This document shows positions 23,968-25,827 of a stretch of DNA of 34,889 nucleotides, in pieces. The position numbers and the translations under genes are program-made. Below the pieces are notes generated by a model that was not told the origin of the DNA, did no database searches, and saw only the letters and a program-made list of their open reading frames with translations. Within the stretch, counting starts at the first letter, position 1. Each line of letters starts with the position of its first letter. The DNA is from Flavobacteriales bacterium (GTDB taxonomy: Bacteria > Bacteroidota > Bacteroidia > Flavobacteriales > Schleiferiaceae), in contig REDE01000069.1 in the NCBI GenBank assembly GCA_007693635.1, positions 1-34,889 on the forward strand, read 5' to 3'.

Positions 23968-24258
23968 TTAATTCGTGCCTTGCGGAAACGATTCCAAACG
24001 ATCAGTACAGGTTGTTGTGGTCTGTACAAAGTTTACTATAGTATCATTGGGCTCTTCACCTGAGGCGTACACTCGGCTTACATCGTCGTAACTACTGCAG
24101 TTCTCATCTTCTTTTATGTAGATGATTTCGAAAAGCGGCTCTGGACGATTTTCAGCATTGGTAGTTATGATGCATCTACAGGCTTTTTCACTTTTGCAAG
24201 AGGTGTTGAAAATACCTAGAAACGAGATGAGGGCAATTAGTGGTAGTATGTTTTTCAT
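23968..24258 (-). CDS. small Cys-rich lipoprotein (CxC-x24-C-x29-C after lipobox)
   Basis: Lipobox FNTSC, then ACRC...NC...TC. Confidence 0.6.
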   Translation of the reverse strand: MKNILPLIALISFLGIFNTSCKSEKACRCIITTNAENRPEPLFEIIYIKEDENCSSYDDVSRVYASGEEPNDTIVNFVQTTTTCTDRLESFPQGTN

Positions 24259-24433
24259 TGGTTCAAAAATTATTTTAAGCGGAATAATGAAACCTATTCA
24301 ATTCAACAGTTGCGTTGAAATAGTTTGGTTGAGCGTATTTTTCTCAAGTGAGTTACATTATCAGTGGCTTATGTTTATGGTTTTCAGTTGTCGACTAAGC
24401 TTTTAGTAATTTGTGTTTTGATGATTCAAGGTA

Positions 24434-24466
24434 CAAATATACATTTTTTGTTTTGCAATTCACAAA
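24434..24466 (-). promoter_or_regulatory. Bacteroidota-type promoter candidate for the 23968-24258 lipoprotein
   Basis: Minus strand TTTG-N21-TATATTTG (exact TAnnTTTG). Confidence 0.5.
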
Positions 24467-24508
24467 AAACTTTCTTTTGCTCAAGCCTTAATCGTTTTGT
24501 TTTTTCGA

Positions 24509-25384
24509 TTAGTGTATTTGTTCCTGTTTCCAAGTTTGCAAAATGGCAATATCGTGGAAGTCGCGAAAGCGGTAACTACCGACTACTTTTCCGTACTGTA
24601 GATGAAGGATTAGGGGCACTCGACCTCCGGTAATGGCGTTGAATATCTCTGGATTTAGATCCTGGGTTTCAAGTTTGGTTAGCTGTAAATAGTCAAAATA
24701 CTTTTCCGGATTGCTGAAATTCCCCCCCAATATAGTTTTCACACTATCGTACGGAATAGCGTTTTTCCTTGCCCAATCGTCTATTTTTTGTGCCGCCATT
24801 TTGCAATACGGACAGTTTACAGCGTAGAATGCAACAAGCTGATTTGGAGCTTCAAAGTCTACGATGTGGAGCGAATCTCGGGAGAGGGTGATCGCTTGGT
24901 TGATGGTATTGGTATGACTTGAGCCAGGCAGTAAATCGGGTGGTGATAATATCTGGGGCAAGGCCATAGAGACAATCAACCCAATCATTGAGAAGAAGGT
25001 TTTTAGTTCGAAGTTCAGCTTGGATACTTTAGCAAACATCAGGAAGATTACGGTGGCAATTGGAATGGCCAGCCAGCCGGTAATGACGATTTTGCCTTTA
25101 TAGAAAAACGGATCGGTATAGGGAAACGAAAACAGGAGCCAGCCAATCAAGAATAGAGCAGTTCCGTATCGTAAAGCTATTACGTAAAATTTATTTTGGT
25201 GATTTATCCAGTCCGTAAAGGGAATATACAAAAGCATGGCTGTAAGAAACCGTGCGGTCATATAGGACCACGATAAATTCATGGGTGTTGTGTGGTATAC
25301 AAACAGGTCGAAGTAATCGTCGCGAATAATTAAAAAAAGAAAAAGTCCGATAAAAATAACGGACCTTATTATGCGTTGTAGCAT
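24509..25384 (-). CDS. multi-TM protein with C-terminal thioredoxin-like domain (CPYC)
   Basis: About five TM segments, then LVAFYAVNCPYCKMAAQKIDDWA and cis-Pro-like GGRVPLILHL. Confidence 0.7.
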   Translation of the reverse strand: MLQRIIRSVIFIGLFLFLIIRDDYFDLFVYHTTPMNLSWSYMTARFLTAMLLYIPFTDWINHQNKFYVIALRYGTALFLIGWLLFSFPYTDPFFYKGKIVITGWLAIPIATVIFLMFAKVSKLNFELKTFFSMIGLIVSMALPQILSPPDLLPGSSHTNTINQAITLSRDSLHIVDFEAPNQLVAFYAVNCPYCKMAAQKIDDWARKNAIPYDSVKTILGGNFSNPEKYFDYLQLTKLETQDLNPEIFNAITGGRVPLILHLQYGKVVGSYRFRDFHDIAILQTWKQEQIH

Positions 25385-25403
25385 TAGTTTGTGTTACTTG
25401 TTA

Positions 25404-25670
25404 TTATTCACCATTTTCGGGCTCATCGATATCGATGATTTCCATTTCTTCACACTCGGCCATGTATTGCATGCCGTTGTAGAGCATTGGTCCACTTGCG
25501 TCATCACAGTCGCCACCTTTGGGGAAAGTGTGGACAAATTGTGAGCTTGGCAGACTAGTGTTCGATTCAACGGGATTAACCGTACACAAACAATCTACGC
25601 GTTTATTGCACGATGAGGCAACCAAGACGAATGTCACTAGTGTTAAAATACTGAGTATAATTTTTTTCAT
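25404..25670 (-). CDS. small Cys-rich lipoprotein (CxC-x25-C-x17-C after lipobox)
   Basis: Lipobox VASSC, then DCLC...DC...EC. Confidence 0.6.
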   Translation of the reverse strand: MKKIILSILTLVTFVLVASSCNKRVDCLCTVNPVESNTSLPSSQFVHTFPKGGDCDDASGPMLYNGMQYMAECEEMEIIDIDEPENGE

Positions 25671-25795: not shown

Positions 25796-25827
25796 CAAAG
25801 ATATGTACATTATTGGATTATAAACAA
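25796..25827 (-). promoter_or_regulatory. Bacteroidota-type promoter candidate for the 25404-25670 lipoprotein and 24509-25384
   Basis: Minus strand TTG-N21-TATCTTTG (exact TAnnTTTG). Confidence 0.45.

Follow-up and report, generated by a model that had tools for sequence, protein, structure and literature searches.

Small four-cysteine lipoproteins and a membrane thioredoxin protein form a candidate substrate–enzyme pair in Bacteroidia

At one locus of a Flavobacteriales genome of the family Schleiferiaceae, two small cysteine-containing lipoproteins, LpA and LpB, are encoded on either side of a membrane protein with a thioredoxin (Trx) domain, here called TM-Trx. This arrangement raises the question of what such an oxidoreductase does for its neighbours. 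A sequence-only reading had proposed that the lipoproteins could be redox substrates or partners of the membrane protein, or metal-binding lipoproteins that it matures. Here we analyse the window, which is the whole 34,889-nucleotide stretch from contig REDE01000069.1, together with related loci from the same bacterial class. Gene association and invariant cysteines argue for a partnership, in which the lipoproteins are more likely substrates than electron carriers or metal binders.

The locus in the window and in its close relatives

The features of the locus, in the order of transcription, are as follows.

25796..25803, minus strand: promoter-like TAnnTTTG motif in the gap before LpB; likewise upstream of LpB in four congeners
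25404..25670, minus strand: LpB, small lipoprotein of 88 amino acids; lipid-bearing Cys21, C27xC29, C55 and C73; orthologues in four congeners
24509..25384, minus strand: TM-Trx, membrane thioredoxin protein of 291 amino acids; about five membrane helices (probably derived MauE/DoxX-like, without the CxC) and a C-terminal Trx domain
24803..24814, minus strand: CPYC active site, residues 191–194 of TM-Trx
24614..24616, minus strand: cis-Pro position P257 (VP257) of the TM-Trx fold
24434..24441, minus strand: TAnnTTTG promoter-like motif before LpA; also precedes LpA in congener G003
23968..24258, minus strand: LpA, small lipoprotein of 96 amino acids; lipid-bearing Cys21, C27xC29, C54 and C84; the G003 orthologue has the same five cysteines in the same place

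LpB and the TM-Trx gene form an operon-like pair separated by 19 bp, and LpA follows downstream after a gap of 250 bp in which a separate promoter-like motif lies. The distances between the cysteines agree exactly with those first described: after the lipid-bearing C21, LpA has C27-x-C29, 24 residues, NC54, 29 residues and C84, and LpB has C27-x-C29, 25 residues, DC55, 17 residues and C73. The two lipoproteins had also been called divergent, which is true of their sequences (20% identity in the mature part) but not of their orientation, because all three genes lie on the minus strand. The TAnnTTTG motifs had been taken for promoters. A copy is indeed present on the correct strand in the gap before each lipoprotein gene, but the window contains the motif about as often as expected by chance (38 copies, 36 expected), and its count was rejected as promoter evidence, which leaves position and conservation in its favour. 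That the motif precedes LpB in five species is better support than the count, and the copy at 25796..25803 likely serves both LpB and the Trx gene.

An alignment of 56 TM-Trx relatives and an AlphaFold model bear out the proposed protein of about five membrane segments with a CPYC site and a cis-proline. C191, C194 and P257 are invariant across the alignment, and the model (mean pLDDT 86) predicts a Trx fold after about five membrane helices. Foldseek matched this model to ResA/DsbF/TlpA-type structures at a probability of 1.0, with a best E value of 0.002 and none at or below 0.001, and Pfam Trx matches fell below threshold. The CxxC and the cis-proline within a predicted Trx fold are the features by which the thioredoxin superfamily is recognized. 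The odd number of membrane helices, and the loops with basic residues on one side, suggest that the Trx domain would face the periplasm.

The membrane part points to a different family. Pfam MauE (PF07291) gives no match for the TM-Trx of the window; it matches 48 of the 56 aligned relatives, those outside the window genus among them. Of 77 wider relatives, 67 have the MauE CxC(F/L)G motif of the membrane domain, which the window genus lacks. Given the MauE matches beyond the genus, we read the window protein as a derived MauE–Trx fusion from which the MauE CxC has been lost. Among the 77 MauE–Trx proteins, 42 have the active site CPHC, which is the motif of Escherichia coli DsbA.

When 60 related genomes were searched, TM-Trx homologues turned up in each of the four congeners among them and in two further genera of the same family; in every one of these a small CxC lipoprotein adjoins the Trx gene. 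In G003, orthologues of LpA (51% identity in the mature part) and LpB flank the Trx gene in the same order as in the window, with the same outer neighbours, a dihydrolipoamide succinyltransferase-like gene and a folC-like gene. The Trx gene of genus g3 is likewise flanked by two lipoproteins. Separately, three congeners and members of family f99 have a Wzz/GNVR chain-length-type gene immediately 3′ of the Trx gene (L002 2418–3440, L218 1066–2085).

LpB orthologues in the four congeners keep all five cysteines. LpB is under strong purifying selection (dN 0.08, dS 1.0, G001 versus G002) and is more conserved than its Trx protein (53–90% versus 28–72%). Such conservation is expected of a working protein partner and, with the operon pairing and the capacity of CxC motifs for redox activity, it would fit lipoproteins that act as redox carriers, swapping electrons with the Trx domain and relaying oxidizing or reducing equivalents to other envelope proteins. 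We nevertheless consider this unlikely, given that related genomes encode up to 18 profile matches each, with variable fillers and orphan copies, which has the look of a substrate family, and that the cysteines are placed on three distinct secondary-structure elements with no CxxC at a helix start.

A family of small lipoproteins with four cysteines

We built a profile from six lipoproteins of genera other than that of the window; among 396 class genomes it picked up relatives in 89, or roughly a fifth. In the iterated profile search, 189 of 193 non-redundant members of this lipoprotein (LP) family had the lipid-bearing cysteine and exactly four others, arranged as CxC, C, C. Since the filter asked for the lipid-bearing cysteine and the CxC alone, the third and fourth cysteines (about 99% each) are independent evidence. 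The four cysteines are thus invariant in homologues, as the sequence-only reading required. The CxC is usually followed by 22–32 residues before the third cysteine and then by 8–25 before the fourth, within a mature part of about 50–60 residues. AlphaFold models of 110 LPs predict a compact beta-beta-alpha-beta domain (pLDDT about 87–90 over the mature part) with the CxC on strand 1, one cysteine on the helix and one on strand 3. A fold search of the PDB with an LP model gave no match at E < 0.1, and no relative of the family was found in PDB, Pfam or NCBIfam. The PG1828 family (NF050142) resembles the LPs in its lipoprotein signal peptide and CKK start, and 73 of the 110 LPs match it weakly. 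We rejected it as their identity because these matches stem from just those two features, and its best members, once fetched, had a mature part that is free of cysteine and of low complexity, unlike that of the LPs. Its cut-off is 50 bits, and neither LpA nor LpB gives a match to it.

With the profile from other genera, LpB (11.3 bits) and LpA (6.4 bits) rank first and second of the window's 243 open reading frames, at scores that are not significant. Both have the lipobox cysteine followed by CxC, C and C with no further cysteine in the mature part, and both adjoin a MauE–Trx gene; the Trx proteins of all five genus members fall in a clade in which every protein has an LP beside it. Position, cysteine pattern and Trx clade, rather than a significant score, place LpA and LpB in the LP family. 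A canonical LP is encoded on another contig of the same genome (L086 4905–5138, G000:C23), with no Trx gene beside it in the 5.6 kb of sequence covered.

Several LPs can be encoded in one genome: G851 has 18 profile matches and one full-length MauE–Trx protein of this clade. Three to seven LP genes lie in tandem at L096 5241–7590, L079 1459–2780 and L097 7006–7774, and one lipoprotein (L085 1894–2256) consists of repeats ending in DDGSC followed by an LP domain. A second type of small lipoprotein, with C-x(1,2)-C-xx-C starting from the lipid-bearing cysteine and more cysteines beyond, is often found near LP/Trx loci:

L060 1080–1295, L061 1853–2290, L085 1125–1346, L224 3459–3671, L226 2052–2297 and L227 1947–2192

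The tandem arrays, with their variable middle parts, and the presence of MauE genes in putative RiPP clusters (PMC7794033) might suggest that the LPs are small disulfide-stapled effectors or signals that act between cells or against them and are matured by the Trx protein. We regard this as improbable: the strong purifying selection on LpB and its greater conservation relative to its Trx protein disfavour a role in an arms race, and neither an immunity gene nor an exporter gene was noticed alongside.

Association of the lipoproteins with membrane thioredoxins

Across the 396 class genomes, 89 have an LP and 80 a MauE/DoxX–Trx protein; 64 have both, 25 an LP only and 16 a Trx protein only. Co-occurrence (64 of 80 Trx-positive genomes versus 25 of the other 316) gives an odds ratio of 46.6 (p = 1e-37), an association that is in part ascertained because the strict MauE–Trx profile derives largely from LP-adjacent members, with thresholds set by eye and metagenome-assembled genomes included. 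A divergent LP-like gene, in one case without the CxC, adjoins the Trx gene in 12 of the 14 inspected genomes among the 16 that had scored as Trx only. In a control with a single, fuller LP profile, an LP was found at E ≤ 1e-6 in 71 of 80 Trx-positive and 7 of 80 Trx-negative genomes, the latter hand-picked from genomes with weak or no matches; this threshold was adopted because the LP profile contains the signal peptide and at E ≤ 0.01 returned signal-peptide noise in control genomes.

Gene order agrees with these counts. Of 150 LPs listed, 56 lie within 2 kb of a MauE–Trx gene, with an expectation of 0.14% each, and these are all on the same strand and almost all upstream (54 of 56). When 80 loci were fetched by the Trx protein alone, the profile found an LP within 1 kb in 52; of the others, one has an LP missed by the profile and one the second lipoprotein type. 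In these 80 loci, 99 of 101 LPs are upstream of the Trx gene and 100 of 101 on its strand. Loci taken from a pattern scan of genome contigs, for which the pattern was that of the closer subgroup, are those of relatives outside the window genus.

In a tree of 179 MauE–Trx proteins (FastTree, with long branches), the LP-adjacent label is clustered, requiring 20 changes against a shuffled mean of 56. The window Trx protein falls in a nine-row clade in which every row is LP-adjacent, and 35 proteins, BT_3928-like or from distant classes, form one LP-free clade. In family f11 (L016–L037), the BT_3928-like MauE–Trx genes have a fixed, different neighbourhood without lipoproteins. In family f20, LPs adjoin a shorter and different membrane Trx protein, which suggests that the partner shared by all is the Trx domain.

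Many LPs have no adjoining Trx gene and several MauE–Trx clades have no adjoining LP. Solitary genes of both kinds are what chance or ordinary neighbourhood, with no functional link, would lead one to expect. Such a reading is, however, already disfavoured by the association, which is far above random and recurs in many families with differing outer flanks, and we consider it very improbable. The neighbourhood association that the sequence-only reading had proposed to check is thus strong, whether with MauE–Trx or with another membrane Trx protein, and the link between LP and Trx is well supported.

A proposed role, and known systems

We consider it somewhat better than an even bet that TM-Trx is a periplasmic thiol oxidoreductase (an oxidase or isomerase) dedicated to the small lipoproteins whose genes adjoin its own. 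In this model, the lipoproteins would leave the cell interior reduced and become lipid-anchored at Cys21, and the periplasmic CPYC Trx domain would make two structural disulfides among their four conserved cysteines. The MauE/DoxX helical part of most relatives would use its CxC to re-oxidize the Trx domain from the quinone pool; in the window genus, where that CxC is lost, re-oxidation would have to take another route. Disulfide formation by the Trx domain is favoured by the even number of cysteines, their separate positions in the predicted fold and the variable filler between them, as well as by the several LPs per enzyme and the DsbA-like CPHC in over half of the relatives. By analogy with the speculation on MauE/MauD, we favour the MauE part as its quinone-side partner. 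The pairing of the genes, the invariance of the cysteines and the purifying selection on LpB are shown, and the folds are predicted; the direction of electron flow, the pairing of the disulfides, the quinone link and the final role of the LPs are inferred. Against this model we count the profile scores of LpA and LpB, the lost MauE CxC, the unpaired LPs and the LP-free Trx clades.

Four invariant cysteines including a CxC could instead hold a metal such as copper or zinc, with a Trx protein that keeps the thiols reduced, as proteins of the TlpA, ResA or Sco type do at metal or haem sites. ResA and TlpA, which are reductants in cytochrome assembly, are among the nearest solved Trx folds. Yet the inspected neighbourhoods show no metal-handling gene, the CPHC active sites speak for oxidation and MauE is tied to disulfide formation; metal binding therefore seems unlikely to us, slightly more so than electron carriage.

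Taken together, the data most likely reflect a widespread, class-level partnership of LP and membrane Trx protein in which the latter is a dedicated disulfide-forming enzyme for these lipoproteins. The fuller picture, of a class-wide envelope disulfide pathway in which one quinone-coupled MauE–Trx protein per genome matures from 1 to about 18 four-cysteine mini-domains that are lipid-anchored and have a fold with no known relative, we put at a little under even. A lipoprotein family with no Pfam, NCBIfam or PDB relatives would thereby be tied to a specific oxidoreductase as a testable enzyme–substrate pair, and the fused MauE–Trx protein would gain a probable role. The pairing also offers a way into a large group of genes that are named in no family library, with up to 18 profile matches per genome in about one-fifth of the sampled class genomes.

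In the literature searched, whose coverage left out most subscription papers, we found no described lipoprotein/MauE–Trx system. The BT_3928 family (NF045576) is also a MauE/DoxX–Trx fusion, and two relatives match it at 46–48 bits over the membrane part. We rejected it as the identity of these proteins, since those scores are far below its 250-bit cut-off, the window TM-Trx gives no match to it and the f11 neighbourhood differs and lacks LPs. In VKOR–Trx fusions and in DsbA/DsbB, a quinone-linked helical bundle re-oxidizes a periplasmic Trx protein. These systems work as proposed here, but their membrane family differs and they are not specific to a single family of small lipoproteins.

Similar in gene content are SviE and SviF of class I lasso peptide clusters, a DoxX protein and a CxxC Trx protein adjoining a small disulfide-bearing peptide (PMC9266682); unlike the genes described here, they are separate, come from Streptomyces and accompany a lasso peptide precursor rather than a lipoprotein. 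SviF proved dispensable for the disulfides of that peptide (PMC9266682), which warns that an adjoining DoxX and Trx pair may be dispensable. MauE itself has been speculated to form the disulfides of the methylamine dehydrogenase beta subunit (PMC7794033). Whereas the MauE-like and Trx parts are fused here, the partner is a lipoprotein and no mau enzyme genes were seen, MauE/MauD share with the LP–Trx systems the membrane family (PF07291), a Trx partner and the service of one nearby-encoded, cysteine-rich envelope protein.
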